The notes beneath the pieces are model-generated. The model saw only the letters and a program-made list of their open reading frames with translations. It searched no databases and was not told where the DNA came from. A stretch of DNA of 64,000 bases from Methylophilus aquaticus (GTDB lineage: Bacteria > Pseudomonadota > Gammaproteobacteria > Burkholderiales > Methylophilaceae). The stretch is from assembly GCF_030769565.1 (NCBI RefSeq), contig NZ_JAVCAP010000001.1, positions 90,161-154,160 of the forward strand, given 5' to 3'. How positions within the stretch are numbered: the stretch's first letter is position 1; each line of letters opens with the position of its first letter. Positions 11,221 through 49,855 of the stretch are shown here, one piece after another. Position numbers and translations under genes: made by a program.

Positions 11221-11604
11221 TCAATAACTCAGGCTATCAAAGCCTGATTCTCCGAGTAATACAATGCTTACCTGATTGGGCAGGCACAACACCACCTGCC
11301 CCGCACGGCGCAGCCAGCCTTGTTGTACACAATACTGGTTATGACAGGGCGCATGTTCAAAGCGGACTTTGCCCTGATGGATGTGGATCACACTTTGCCC
11401 CATCGTACCTTTCACCGTGATATGTCTGTCTTGCATGAGGTCATACGTACCGATAATGTGTGTGCCCTGGCGAATCTGGCATTTTGTGGCGTGCGCGTAG
11501 TTTCCCCAGTCCGACCATAGCCAGCCGGTGATGCCCAGGCTGAGCAGTAGCACTAGCCAGTCCCCCCATAACAATGGGCGCAGCTTACTCAACCAGGTGC
11601 GCAT
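11221..11604 (-). CDS. NusG domain II-containing membrane-anchored protein
   Basis: This 127-residue protein has one N-terminal membrane helix (about 14-32) and a single NusG_II domain. The diagnostic block is present: GKVRFEHAPCHNQYC, then QGWLRRAGQVVLCLPN, with Cys at the PC, YC and LCLP positions. Such proteins are found beside ApbE and Rnf/Nqr-like genes and are exported, unlike the transcription factor NusG. It overlaps the end of apbE by 20 bases and is followed closely by the Gx transporter, so the three are very probably one operon. It probably takes part in extracytoplasmic flavin-linked electron transfer, with details unknown. Confidence 0.85.
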   Translation of the reverse strand: MRTWLSKLRPLLWGDWLVLLLSLGITGWLWSDWGNYAHATKCQIRQGTHIIGTYDLMQDRHITVKGTMGQSVIHIHQGKVRFEHAPCHNQYCVQQGWLRRAGQVVLCLPNQVSIVLLGESGFDSLSY

Positions 11605-12619
11605 GTCTCGCGGTCTCCGGATGCAGCCAGGTCAGTCGTTGCTGCATGGGTGGGTTGAGTGAAATCTTGCCTGTTTGGTCAACCATTAACCAGCCAAATA
11701 CGCCCATGGTTGAAGCTAATGCGCTGGCTTGTTCAGGCGCAATAAACATGGGTTTTGAAGCCACGTCCGACAGCACACCAGCATGCCCCTGTGGTGCAAT
11801 CAGCACGGTCACAGCTTGTGTGGTCTGCACTGGCATACCGGTGCGCGGGTCAATAATATGACAATAGCGCATGCCGTCTTTCATATAATAGCGCTGATAA
11901 TCACCCGAGGTGCCAATGGCCCAGCCACTCGGTAAATCAAGGGCTGCCATCGCCCCCGGCTGGCGTGGATGCTGGATGCCCACTCGCCATGCGCGTCCAT
12001 GATGTTGACCCAGCGCCATCACATTGCCGCCGATATTGATGAGGGCGTTTTTAACCCCATGCGCTTTTAGTATCGCCATGCCTTCATCCAGCGCATAGCC
12101 TTTGGCGTAGCCGCCCAAATCCATCTTTACTGAGCGATTGCGAGAGGCCACGACATCCTTTGTAATGGTTAAATCGGTCATCGCTGGCCGTTGTGCCTGT
12201 AGCCGCTGTAATTGTTGCGGCGCGAATTGCACAGGGCTGAATTGCTCACGGTGAAAACCCCACAATGCAATCAACTGGCCGATGGCCGGATTGAACAGCC
12301 CACCGGATTGCACCGATAATTGTTGTGCGTGTTGTAACAGGTCTGCCAGCGTATGCGAAACAGGAATACTACTGTTGCCTTGGGTAATGGCGGTATTGAG
12401 TTGCTGGAGTTCACCTGCTTGCCAGGCGTGCAGTTGCTGATGCAACTGTTGGTAACGTGCGAATACCGCCTGACTGGCCTGTTGCGCCTTTGCCTCTGAC
12501 AGGTCGTCAATCTGTACATCCACCAGCGTGCCAAACACATAAGCCTCGCTGTGCGTGCTGTCAGGCTGGCAGCCGCCGCACAGACTGATTAATCCTAATA
12601 AACATAACCATCGATACAT
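11585..12619 (-). CDS. apbE: FAD:protein FMN transferase (lipoprotein)
   Basis: This 344-residue lipoprotein has the lipobox LCGGC near residue 17. ApbE attaches FMN from FAD to a Thr/Ser of periplasmic or membrane target proteins. The visible motifs are MDLGGYAKGYALDEG, LINIGGNVMALG, AIGTSGDYQRY and HIIDPRTGMPV. The metal-binding segment reads SDVASKP, with Ser where D-x-x-T is usual. ATG 12619 is chosen over TTG 12625. No FMN-binding-domain, Nqr or Rnf protein is in this window, so its flavinylation target must be encoded elsewhere. It is the first gene of the minus operon with the NusG_II and Gx transporter genes. Confidence 0.92.
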   Translation of the reverse strand: MYRWLCLLGLISLCGGCQPDSTHSEAYVFGTLVDVQIDDLSEAKAQQASQAVFARYQQLHQQLHAWQAGELQQLNTAITQGNSSIPVSHTLADLLQHAQQLSVQSGGLFNPAIGQLIALWGFHREQFSPVQFAPQQLQRLQAQRPAMTDLTITKDVVASRNRSVKMDLGGYAKGYALDEGMAILKAHGVKNALINIGGNVMALGQHHGRAWRVGIQHPRQPGAMAALDLPSGWAIGTSGDYQRYYMKDGMRYCHIIDPRTGMPVQTTQAVTVLIAPQGHAGVLSDVASKPMFIAPEQASALASTMGVFGWLMVDQTGKISLNPPMQQRLTWLHPETARHAHLVE

Positions 12620-47044: not shown

Positions 47045-47404
47045 TTAATTAAATGCTTCGATATTCCAGCTGGAGATTGAAAGTATTGATAACCATAAAT
47101 CATGGGCATTTCCCCAGACATTGCCAGCAATAATTTCTTCATTTGTCGCCGGGCGTACTGAGTGAAAGCTATGCCATATATGATCGTCAGCGTTAGCGCC
47201 ATTCGAGTATTGCCATAAATCTTCATCCAGAGAGGGAATGCCAATTTGTTCCGCAATAAAAAACTCTCCCGAATCAAAGTGTTTCAGCATTTTATTAATT
47301 TGCTCATCTTCCAGCTGGCCTGATAAAAGCAGTTTCCCCCATGCCTTGTAGTTGGCTGCGTCTCTATATAAATATTCAAACACAGAGTAAGTGTTTGGTT
47401 GCAT
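47045..47404 (-). CDS. Hypothetical protein beside HNH nuclease gene
   Basis: This 119-residue, acidic, Trp- and Asn-rich protein is not recognised. It has no signal peptide or membrane segment. It ends 32 bases after the convergent CorA-like gene and begins 13 bases downstream of the HNH nuclease gene, in the same direction, so the two are probably co-transcribed. Sequence bits such as EEIIAGNVWGNAHDLWLSIL have no motif that I can name. An accessory or immunity-like role to the nuclease is speculation. Confidence 0.6.
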   Translation of the reverse strand: MQPNTYSVFEYLYRDAANYKAWGKLLLSGQLEDEQINKMLKHFDSGEFFIAEQIGIPSLDEDLWQYSNGANADDHIWHSFHSVRPATNEEIIAGNVWGNAHDLWLSILSISSWNIEAFN

Positions 47405-47417
47405 TTTTAAATCCTTT

Positions 47418-48191
47418 CTATTTTAAGAAGACTTCATTTCGATGGCGTTGCAGAAACTCGGAAGAGGGGATGAATCGCTCAGGTAATTCAATCGTTTTAC
47501 CCTCAATGGGTAAAATAACATCGCGAATAAATGGGTCATTACGCGCTTTTAGAATATCAGATACAACAACTTTAAAACTTTCTGAGAGCGTGATGAAGCC
47601 TTTATCAAAAGCTCTGTCGTGAATTGCCGATAGGCATAACCCATTGCTAGGATTTAAACGATTTGTTTTGTCCTTGCTCCAAGGCACAATATGGCTCGCG
47701 ATTAATAGCTTGGGCTCTGACAAGCCAGACATGCAACAGCGTGAACGATAACTACTCATCACAGCGCGGCGGAAAAAATGCTGCTTAATGCGTTGCTCAG
47801 TTAAAACTCGCCTTGTTTCGCCAGTAAAATCTTCTGGCATCAATGCGTTGTTTTCTGGCTCGATAGTTTCAGGTGAAGCTTGTTCTAACTGTTGCCGAAG
47901 TAATTGACACTCAACTGCTAATCTTTCCCAGTCCGCATGAAATTCATTCCAAACTTCTTCATCCAGTTTTGACGAGCCATCCAGCCCTTTGCGACCTGTA
48001 GACGTGATCGCAGGATCAATACTGGCAATATTGAGCATTTTCATTGCAAGTGCATCGGGCGTTCGCCCAATCACTTTTGCTAAGTGAATGATTTCAGGGT
48101 TTCGACTATGAATGCGGCCATATGGCAATTGACAGTAAAGATGGAAAGCCAATTTGACTTGCTCTTTGGTCCAACGCGTATTGTTTGCCAT
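47418..48191 (-). CDS. HNH endonuclease domain protein
   Basis: This 257-residue protein has a C-terminal HNH nuclease domain: the sequence around residue 145 has YRSRCCMSGLSEPKLLIASHIVPW, followed by NPSNGLCLSAIHDRAFDKGFITL, the His-Asn-His pattern of HNH_2 (restriction-like) enzymes. The N-terminal ~80 residues hold a helix-rich region with IHLAKVIGRTPDALAMKMLNIASID, resembling a DNA-binding helix pair. ATG 48191 follows AGGA. It is likely a DNA endonuclease, either of a mobile element or defence type. The neighbour is the small 119-residue gene. Confidence 0.82.
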   Translation of the reverse strand: MANNTRWTKEQVKLAFHLYCQLPYGRIHSRNPEIIHLAKVIGRTPDALAMKMLNIASIDPAITSTGRKGLDGSSKLDEEVWNEFHADWERLAVECQLLRQQLEQASPETIEPENNALMPEDFTGETRRVLTEQRIKQHFFRRAVMSSYRSRCCMSGLSEPKLLIASHIVPWSKDKTNRLNPSNGLCLSAIHDRAFDKGFITLSESFKVVVSDILKARNDPFIRDVILPIEGKTIELPERFIPSSEFLQRHRNEVFLK

Positions 48192-48194
48192 CAC

Positions 48195-48792
48195 TATATC
48201 CTGTCAGTATATAAAACGACTTGAGTAGCACGAATGTTCAGAACGCCTTGACCAAGCATCAATGAATAAGTGTGCGACCCTATGCCGCGCTTTGCTCGCA
48301 AAGACAGGCCTTCACCCTCACCACACCCTCTCCCTTAGCAGAGAGAGGGTGTATCTTTTCTGCATGCATCTGCGTTTATATGTAGCGAGGTAATTTCTTA
48401 AAAAGCTTCCTGAATTTAAGTGCTAATTAAGTAAAACTATAATCATTCGACGGCCATCAGTGTTTGTTAAATACTCAAGATAGCATCAAACATGCTTATT
48501 GTAATCTCCGAATGTATAGATCACTAAGTTGTAGGGTTTGAGAATAGGGACTGCGTATTAAAGCTGGAGTCTCTCTGCTAAAAATAGTCTGTACGGATAC
48601 GCTAACGATTAAGCCCGTAACTGAGCCACCAAGCAAAAAATCTTTTATTTAATTCCCAGCTTGTATGCCATTAGGTATATACCGAACTACCTATATCGAG
48701 AGATTCTTTCTTGCCTCGATGGGTCCACAATGGAAACCATCGTGATTGAGCAAACATGTAAACGAGAAGACATGCATCACATTTCACTCATT
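48195..48792. other. Intergenic stretch without a recognised gene
   Basis: About 600 bases separate the HNH gene from the small secreted family. They hold a 12-bp-arm repeat at 48323-48352 (listed separately) and a weak inverted repeat, TTAGGTATATACCGAACTACCTA, near 48671-48693. I see no ORF with a ribosome site, no tRNA and no terminator beyond the 48323 hairpin. Confidence 0.5.
48323..48352. repeat. REP-like hairpin
   Basis: ACACCCTCTCCC and GAGAGAGGGTGT pair over 11 of 12 positions around an 8-base loop, beside a CCTTCACCCTCACC run. Such CCCTCTCCC/GAGAGGG hairpins are dispersed repeats in many proteobacterial genomes and may also act as a weak terminator. Confidence 0.55.
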
Positions 48793-48806: not shown

Positions 48807-49073
48807 ATGAGATACATCATTTCTACAGCAGTTTTGGTTTCGGGTTTGGTAGCGGCTATGCCAGTGCTGGCTTTTGATCAAGAAGTGAGTGTTGAGCACA
48901 AAGCGCATGCGCAACAGTTTTTGAGCAAACGCCCTTATGCAAACCCTGTGGTGTTGGCCAAGGCGGGTGCCGAGCAGGGGTGGGTAGGTGCTTCGCTGGT
49001 GGTTGGGCAGGATCAGGCATTGAAGCAGCAGCACATCATGAAAATGCACATGATTGGAAAACGTGCTTATTAG
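48807..49073 (+). CDS. Small secreted protein, first of three paralogues
   Basis: This 88-residue protein has AAAGGAG just upstream of ATG 48807 and a signal peptide (STAVLVSGLVAAMPVLA|FD). The mature ~65 residues contain KRPYANPVV, WVGASLVVGQD, QALKQQ and the C-terminal MKMHMIGKRAY. The next gene repeats most of this with high identity. The GKR-aromatic unit appears twice (KRPY in the middle, GKRAY at the end). There are no Cys residues and many His, Lys and Met. I do not recognise the family. It is probably exported to the periplasm or outside. Confidence 0.75.
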   Translation: MRYIISTAVLVSGLVAAMPVLAFDQEVSVEHKAHAQQFLSKRPYANPVVLAKAGAEQGWVGASLVVGQDQALKQQHIMKMHMIGKRAY

Positions 49074-49170
49074 TCAGGTTGCTGTCAGCCTGTTATGCAA
49101 TGATATAAGTGCCGTGTTGCGATGGCGCGCAGGGTGCGATTGAAAAATTGAGAGATTAAGGAGCATTAAA

Positions 49171-49437
49171 ATGAGCAAAATCTTATTGGCAGTATTGATG
49201 GTGTTCGGCGTGATGGCAAATGTTCAAGCTGGAAATCTGGCCGCGAATGACGAAGGAGTTCGCAATTTGCATCACAAAAATTTTGCGGGTCAGCGTCCTT
49301 ATGTAAACCCGGTGGTGTTTGCCAAAGCGGATGCCGATCAGCCTTGGGTAGGTGCTTCGCTGGTGGTAGGGCAAGATCGTGCATTGAAGCAGCAGCAAGT
49401 AATGAAAATGCACATGATAGGTAAGCGTGCATTCTAA
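49171..49437 (+). CDS. Small secreted protein, second paralogue
   Basis: This 88-residue protein has AAGGAG upstream of ATG 49171 and a signal peptide ending VQA|GNL. The mature part has EGVRNLHHKNFAGQRPY, VNPVVFAKAD, WVGASLVVGQDRALKQQ and MKMHMIGKRAF. Residues from about 44 to the end are nearly the same as in the gene before, while the RNLH-KNF-GQRPY block is shared with the gene after, so it is the link between the two. It is probably co-transcribed with both neighbours (97 and 77 bases apart). Function is unknown. Confidence 0.75.
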   Translation: MSKILLAVLMVFGVMANVQAGNLAANDEGVRNLHHKNFAGQRPYVNPVVFAKADADQPWVGASLVVGQDRALKQQQVMKMHMIGKRAF

Positions 49438-49514
49438 TCAGTGTGCTATCAGGTGAGGGGCTTACGTGCTGACACCTGAAAAGAACCCGCGATACATGTA
49501 TGAAGGAGCGAAAA

Positions 49515-49802
49515 ATGTATAAATTATTACTAGCAGGATTGATGGCATTCGGTTTGGTCGCCAACGTGCAAGCAGGTGATTTATCAGAAAATGATACTGG
49601 CGTACGCAACCTGCATCAAAAAAACTTTACTGGTCAGCGCCCATACAGTAAAGCCCCGCAAATCAAGCAGCAAAGCCCTGCGGAGCAATGGGAAGGCGCA
49701 GGGATTGTGACCGACAAGCCAGAAAAAGGCTTTGATAAACATCAGCAGATGCGGCTGAATTTTATGGGCAAGCGCCCCTATGTAGGCCCGCCATCAGATT
49801 AA
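49515..49802 (+). CDS. Small secreted protein, third paralogue
   Basis: This 95-residue protein starts at ATG 49515, with AAGGAG 6 bases upstream, rather than 49500, which gives a signal peptide (AGLMAFGLVANVQA|GDL). It has TGVRNLHQKNFTGQRPYSK like the second paralogue, but its middle is different (SPAEQWEGAGIVTDKPEKG). It ends in MRLNFMGKRPYVGPPSD, which keeps the GKR-aromatic unit with six extra residues. The end of the set is marked by a strong terminator. The divergence suggests that it has a different partner from the first two. Confidence 0.75.
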   Translation: MYKLLLAGLMAFGLVANVQAGDLSENDTGVRNLHQKNFTGQRPYSKAPQIKQQSPAEQWEGAGIVTDKPEKGFDKHQQMRLNFMGKRPYVGPPSD

Positions 49803-49829
49803 GCTGTTGACTGTGATGTCGTTAAATAC

Positions 49830-49855
49830 ACCCTGCAGATTGCAGGGTTTTTTTT
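49830..49855 (+). terminator. Terminator of the small secreted gene set
   Basis: A perfect 8-bp stem, ACCCTGCA / TGCAGGGT, with a 3-base loop is followed by TTTTTTT. It ends the third paralogue's transcript. Confidence 0.88.

Follow-up and report, generated by a model that had tools for sequence, protein, structure and literature searches.

KRPY proteins, a family of small exported proteins in the Methylophilaceae that look like the output of a dedicated signaling unit

Three consecutive small genes in the window, the 64,000-nucleotide stretch of Methylophilus aquaticus DNA analyzed here, were found to encode members of a family of apparently exported proteins that we call KRPY. At the level of sequence, genome comparisons establish this family and its conservation, an upstream element shared by its genes and placed almost exclusively at them and at the locus of their presumed regulator, and the co-inheritance of the family with a regulatory triad composed of a LuxR-type protein with a GAF domain, a CHASE3 hybrid histidine kinase, and a single receiver. 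Together, the proteins, the triad, and the element look like a dedicated cell-surface response. The reading that we favor, with slightly better than even confidence, is that the KRPY proteins are the dedicated output of the triad and act in the envelope as mostly unstructured, basic two-site binders. Small exported proteins confined to one lineage usually lead nowhere, as nothing indicates when they are produced. For the KRPY proteins, by contrast, an operator, a likely regulator, a kinase, and neighboring enzymes have all been identified in cultivable methanol users (Methylophilus and Methylotenera), so that both stimulus and function are directly testable.

The gene cluster and the KRPY family

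All three genes lie on the forward strand. The first (48807-49073, from the open reading frame) encodes an 88-aa protein of the 'short' type (P0001) with the motif SKRPY, a central WVGAS, and a C-terminal GKRAY. The second (49171-49437) also encodes 88 aa (P0002), a chimera with a long-type front and a short-type back whose motifs are GQRPY and a C-terminal GKRAF. The 95-aa product of the third (49515-49802; P0003) is of the 'long' type and carries GQRPY and GKRPY, the latter followed by a six-residue tail; the ATG at 49515 was chosen as its start over 49500 because AAGGAG directly precedes 49515. An AAGGAG-type ribosome site stands before each gene, and the cluster is followed by an intrinsic terminator with an 8-pair stem and a T-run (49830-49848, forward strand). 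The ORFs, ribosome sites, and hairpin thus confirm the original prediction of three consecutive genes with their own ribosome sites and a common terminator. Signal peptides, also predicted, were assigned by eye; assuming the corresponding cleavage sites, the apparently exported mature proteins have 66, 68, and 75 residues, in line with the roughly 65-75 proposed, and isoelectric points of 9.1-10.0. In the middle of each protein lies W-x-G-A, and each contains the motif (G/S)(K/Q)R(P/A)(Y/F), which had been described as occurring once near the middle and once at the C-terminus. Two copies are indeed present in all three proteins, and the second forms the exact C-terminus of proteins 1 and 2; the terminal placement does not hold for protein 3, which ends six residues further on in VGPPSD.

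None of the three window proteins scored above a curated Pfam or NCBIfam cut-off, and a profile search of PDB chain sequences gave no match at E<=10, so the earlier suggestion of an unrecognized family has stood up in these collections. For 55 KRPY members, scattered weak matches alone were obtained in Pfam (best E 0.0073, DUF6791) and NCBIfam (best E 0.00045, BRANT_His_rich, two members), and PHROGs gave no consistent match (phrog_24782 in two members, best E 7.6e-4; phrog_36662 in one, E 0.0098). Plasmid records searched with protein 3 gave no match. Among the matches listed in searches of the largely open literature for the family, its motif, its regulator, its hosts, and the SulP-carbonic anhydrase pair described below, no published account of the family was found, and it is absent from the excerpted text of PMC3728764. 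Among the papers listed, one, PMC6152110, contains the string 'KRPY'.

The family is real, with similarity among its members far beyond chance. A profile built from members matches 42 of 187 Methylophilaceae genomes, distributed over 7 of 24 genera, while protein 2 alone as the query (E<=1e-3) finds matches in 31 of the 187. A lack of conservation in relatives had been named at the outset as a finding that would count against the prediction; the 42 matching genomes of the same family show the opposite. The M. aquaticus genome itself has seven members by this profile, of which three are in the window while contigs 14 and 3 carry two each, and the protein 2 orthologue in a relative, G061, is 82% identical. 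In an order-wide sample of 399 genomes, where at most 12 candidates per genome were scored, four matched the profile, three of them from the same family. The fourth, in G335 (E=0.0018), was rejected by judgment, the protein having 246 aa and being aligned over the signal region and one TRPY only. All 13 loci from a pattern scan of named genome contigs belong to Methylophilus or Methylotenera.

We defined the family as small proteins that begin with a signal-like segment and contain [GSA][KQR]R[PA][YF] twice, with [WF]x[GA][AST] at the center; the three window proteins possess all of these features. A broken 66-aa copy from G061 was excluded before members were counted. Of 94 distinct members, both strict motifs occur in 69, one in 22, and none in three; the central segment is present in 88, and 40 end exactly at the second motif. 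The most conserved, nearly invariant sites are the R-P-Y of motif 1, the G of WxGA, and the R of motif 2. Met and His residues were seen by eye to vary across the family, and metal binding through them was dropped as a candidate function. Reduced 68-aa KRPY proteins with the C-terminal motif only (FLGSRPYMES) were noted at two loci (L090, 7253-7459, and L091, 6929-7135, both on the reverse strand), where their genes occupy the usual slot from luxR to SulP. The dN/dS ratio was 0.05-0.28 across the 12 pairs computed, the values being rough for four of them because dS exceeds 1, and this range indicates that purifying selection acts over the whole KRPY protein. Such selection argues against the proteins being antimicrobial peptides or precursors of modified peptides, a role that their small size, basic character, and conserved C-terminal motif could suggest. 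So does the lack of a modification enzyme or immunity gene among the identified neighbors, many neighbors being unidentified, and we consider this role extremely improbable.

Many KRPY clusters consist of a pair, a 'short' gene that stops at the motif and a 'long' gene extended by a short tail, usually with D or E as its last residue. Alignment identifies gene 2 of the window as a recombinant of a gene-3-type front and a gene-1-type back, joined at the first motif. Before that motif, it is as gene 3 at 32 of 44 aa, versus 11 of 43 for gene 1; past the motif, 35 of 44 aa and 110 of 132 bases are as in gene 1, and 9 of 44 aa as in gene 3. The sharing noticed earlier, between proteins 1 and 2 at the back and between 2 and 3 at the front, is real and sharp in the alignment, and it is explained by recombination between unlike neighbors. 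The genes are paralogous, as had been proposed, but the notion of tandem copies arising by duplication needs revision in that they are not simple duplicates, gene 2 being recombinant. The same middle gene is present in G061, where stop codons interrupt the third gene. A second chimera of this design, independent of the first and with its joint at the same motif, was found in a Methylotenera genome (G144); it agrees with the long gene at 35 of 40 aa ahead of the joint and with the short gene at 42 of 47 aa behind it. Just upstream of the window cluster lie an HNH_2 endonuclease-like gene and a 119-aa ORF (47045-48194, reverse strand); matching stretches in G061 (L040) and G060 (L042) have neither, so that they apparently represent a small insertion.

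AlphaFold2 prediction for protein 2 with 55 sequences gave no confident fold (pLDDT 61.9, pTM 0.22), the model consisting of the signal helix, one helix before the C-terminal motif, and otherwise coil. We read this model as suggesting a flexible protein with two short docking motifs. It had originally been proposed that the proteins are structural or bind a ligand and that their two motif copies do the same job; given the lack of a confident fold, these roles stay conjectural. A coat on the surface or a component of a biofilm matrix would suit apparently exported, basic proteins that come in several copies and repeat a short aromatic motif. With two motif copies only, no beta-rich fold in the low-confidence model, and no genes for secretion or assembly noticed alongside in the neighborhoods read, we judge a structural function to be quite unlikely.

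Small exported proteins of other families offer partial parallels. CpxP and Spy are small, exported stress proteins of the periplasm under the control of an envelope-sensing two-component system; the KRPY proteins are likewise small and exported, and control by an envelope pathway is what we propose for them. They differ in that just 1 of 55 KRPY members weakly matches each of the two models (E 0.021 and 0.039), in lacking a confident fold, and in having as their presumed regulator a GAF-LuxR protein instead of an OmpR-type one. The BhsA/McbA (DUF1471) and DUF4148 families resemble KRPY in their small size, signal peptide, and paralogue clusters. No KRPY match to DUF1471 is listed at E<=0.1, DUF4148 matches 1 of 55 members at E=0.081 only, and the KRPY and WxGA motifs are not known as features of either family.

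The upstream element and the regulatory triad

The promoter element, the LuxR triad, and the SulP-carbonic anhydrase genes all lie outside the span on which the original prediction was based. Upstream of the three genes, a conserved element was read at 48664-48703 (forward strand) as TATGCC-N5-GTATATACC-GAAC-TACCTAT-ATC-GAGAGA; in relatives it takes the form TATGCC-N5-GTATAYACCG-N3-TACCTAT-N3-GGTAGA, the GGTA half being degenerate in the window. The element is followed in relatives by a T-rich stretch and then a CATAAT/CAAAAT-like hexamer, and the probable -10 hexamer of the three-gene promoter, CACAAT (48726-48731, forward strand), stands at the position shared with them. By eye, CATAAT, CAAAAT, or CACAAT is found at equal distance in most of the aligned upstream regions. 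The alignment comprised 41 distinct upstream regions picked by their GTATA..TAT core, so that only the conservation of TATGCC and AGA on its flanks counts as independent.

Counted from the putative -10 and the putative transcription start, the center of TACCTAT-N3-GGTA lies at about -43. The operator of a LuxR-type class II activator is centered near -42.5 beside a weak -35, and LuxR-type activators usually contact RNA polymerase from that position upstream of -10. If this -10 is right, the element could thus occupy a class II position, and its TACCTAT fits the NarL heptamer TACYYMT. The KRPY locus differs from NarL/LuxR-type systems in that its regulator has GAF instead of a receiver and in the arrangement of the half-sites as GTATAYACC plus TACCTAT-N3-GGTA.

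In the 2.96-Mb M. aquaticus genome, the pattern GTATATACCNANCTACCTATA has three perfect sites, each before a KRPY cluster. Allowing up to three mismatches adds one further site, which has three mismatches and overlaps a perfect site on the opposite strand; the reversed-pattern control gave one site. A looser pattern with at most one mismatch yielded 49 sites in 38 of the 187 family genomes, and its reversed control yielded six. By coordinates, 44 of the 49 stand before KRPY genes, two of these before reduced one-motif genes (G108 and G110). Two more are beside luxR with no KRPY gene on the stretch (G075 contig 15 and G079 contig 150, the KRPY genes of G079 being on another contig). The remaining three (G128, G144, and G146) are elsewhere and have one common sequence, which in G128 and G144 falls within an unrelated long ORF. 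Every one of the 39 perfect matches falls either at a KRPY gene or at the regulator. Because the element was defined on the genes where it was counted, there is some circularity in its discovery; independent support comes from how rare it is in the rest of these genomes and from the reversed-pattern controls. No site with at most one mismatch was found in 7 of the 42 KRPY genomes (G041-G044, G161, G165, and G170), and diverged versions of the element are visible in each of the three loci read from these seven.

Some paralogues have no element, for example one in M. aquaticus (C3:49476) beside a PhoPQ-like system and PepSY genes, and such distant paralogues indicate that the KRPY family is not wholly under this pathway. 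Distant paralogues of the form KRP(L/V)...KR(A/P)Y were seen at the far end of the triad in L038 (contig 3 of M. aquaticus; 11465-11815), L044 (3894-4151), L045 (3244-3525), L046 (9470-9799), and L048 (1722-2051). PepSY genes and a PhoPQ-like pair lie nearby in most of these loci, and GTGAAAG repeats replace the shared element upstream of the paralogue in L045, L046, and L048.

At the common locus, the element is flanked on one side by the KRPY genes and on the other by the divergently oriented gene of the GAF-LuxR protein, which has no receiver domain of its own; the luxR gene is followed by that of the CHASE3 hybrid histidine kinase and then by the single receiver. The M. aquaticus copy of this locus is on contig 3 (L038), unlinked to the window cluster. 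Orthologue-level luxR (E<=2.3e-35; next best 2.7e-18) was found in 42 of 187 genomes, and 41 of these are among the 42 with KRPY (Fisher p = 4.8e-39, ancestry uncorrected). The luxR gene is partial in some genomes, being in two pieces in G104, where the first KRPY gene looks broken as well, and incomplete in G170. Of the unmatched genomes, G076 is 80% complete, and in the luxR-only G110 the slot is occupied by a reduced KRPY gene with one motif, which escaped the genome-wide profile. A weak match elsewhere (E 4.8e-4) places G108 among the 42, and its KRPY gene at the usual position is likewise reduced, while the common locus of G075 has lost its KRPY gene and kept the rest. The hybrid kinase was found in 41 of the 187 genomes, all within the luxR set, with about six candidates scored per genome in this count and in the Burkholderiales triad search below. 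An apparent loss of the kinase in G180 was withdrawn, as part of the gene was found next to SulP on a different contig. KRPY, LuxR, kinase, and receiver are all kept in G082 and G165 without an adjacent SulP, which makes the triad the tightest link of the KRPY genes.

Related triads were found in three other Burkholderiales genomes among the 399 sampled (G191, G193, and G241; kinase 40-44% identical). No KRPY gene lies within the 16 kb read around each, and G191 and G193 gave no genome-wide KRPY match either. Since the related triad occurs without a nearby KRPY gene, the KRPY proteins look like an added output. If this is true, they would represent a clear case of a signaling unit, present in related form in other Burkholderiales, gaining a new and nearly exclusive output. 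TATGCC-N4-GGCATA-like dyads noticed by eye just before luxR in these three genomes (L111, L112, and L113) recall the left part of the element and are a possible old autoregulatory site of the triad.

The same triads bear on the idea that KRPY proteins or their fragments are the ligand of the CHASE3 kinase, forming a self-inducing peptide-signal loop. That small exported proteins are inherited together with a LuxR regulator and a sensor kinase of the membrane is consistent with such a loop, as are the several diverging KRPY copies in many genomes. The kinases of the triads without a nearby KRPY gene, however, apparently do not need KRPY, and no recurrent exporter or processing protease was found in the neighborhoods read, except that in several loci of the Methylotenera type the far end of the triad has a gene for a trypsin-like protease. 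A signaling role for the KRPY proteins therefore appears unlikely.

In the scheme that we prefer, with KRPY as the output of the triad, the CHASE3 kinase would sense an envelope signal, and the LuxR protein would bind the TACC half-sites upstream of -10 and switch on the KRPY clusters, the unlinked one in the window included. Judging from where the sites fall, the KRPY genes look like the main, possibly the sole, direct targets of this LuxR branch. Once the protein is exported, its two (S/G)(K/Q)R(P/A)(Y/F) motifs, separated by the WxGA segment, would each dock on a partner, and the protein might modulate an envelope complex or act as an adaptor with a protective role, which is the least certain step. 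A more tentative and rather doubtful extension is that a complete sensor-kinase pathway serving, as judged by its DNA element, one purpose controls an undescribed kind of disordered, two-motif exported protein whose copies move to other genomic sites with their operator and recombine exactly at the binding motif, yielding mix-and-match envelope adaptors.

Neighborhoods of the KRPY genes

Downstream of the KRPY genes at the common locus lie genes for a SulP permease and then a beta-carbonic anhydrase. This KRPY-SulP-carbonic anhydrase order beside luxR was found in 19 of the 23 luxR loci read (the exceptions being G075, G082, G165, and G180), and SulP is present in 49 of the 187 genomes, including 40 of the 42 with KRPY. 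No STAS domain was detected in the SulP of the L044 copy. In the excerpted text of PMC6458275, SulP without STAS beside a beta-carbonic anhydrase is predicted to move bicarbonate or balance pH, and a similar pair in Methylococcus is described in that of PMC11423575. The pair directly downstream in the KRPY locus is the same as in can2-sulP of Acidithiobacillus and CA3-SulP of Methylococcus; the excerpts of the two papers mention neither a small exported protein nor a LuxR/hybrid-kinase triad there (PMC6458275, PMC11423575).

At the common locus, the promoter of the element would also read into the SulP anion permease and beta-carbonic anhydrase genes, and since these are predicted bicarbonate or pH genes, inorganic carbon or pH is a likely candidate for the stimulus to which the triad may respond. 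The KRPY proteins are probably flexible, two-motif envelope proteins tied to bicarbonate or pH. In the window itself, nothing near the KRPY cluster suggests bicarbonate.

It could also be that KRPY proteins assist or regulate the pair of SulP permease and beta-carbonic anhydrase from the periplasmic side, in the handling of inorganic carbon or pH. Both the recurrent gene order and the presence of SulP in nearly all KRPY genomes speak for this, as does the predicted function of the pair as a bicarbonate or pH system (PMC6458275, PMC11423575, in the parts excerpted). It is at odds with G082 and G165, which keep KRPY without an adjacent SulP and have no SulP match genome-wide at E<=1e-80, and with the window and contig 14 clusters, which lie apart from the SulP-carbonic anhydrase genes. 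Furthermore, no KRPY gene was detected in 8 of the 49 SulP genomes, several of which are incomplete or have a more distant SulP. We regard such an accessory role as rather unlikely and continue to favor the KRPY proteins as the output of the triad.

Other neighborhoods were also noted. CysA/CysW-like genes lie near the KRPY pair in L041, L043, L046, and L047 and beside the triad in L089, and a link to sulfate uptake was considered; it was rejected as a general rule because the contig 14 pair of M. aquaticus, which is of that type, has no CysA/CysW-like neighbors. This second KRPY pair is in a methanol-oxidation-like region of contig 14 (L039, 1814-17007), flanked by PQQ-type beta-propeller/SoxYZ-like carrier genes and by MoxR-VWA-MoxY-like genes (MoxR ATPase, MoxY-like kinase). 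A link to methanol oxidation was set aside, the arrangement being seen in the M. aquaticus genome only. Finally, thirteen short ORFs on one strand lie beside a KRPY pair in G060 (L043, 8437-13246, reverse strand), two of them ending in PSFKRDA, and our guess is that this array is akin to a gene-cassette (integron-like) array.
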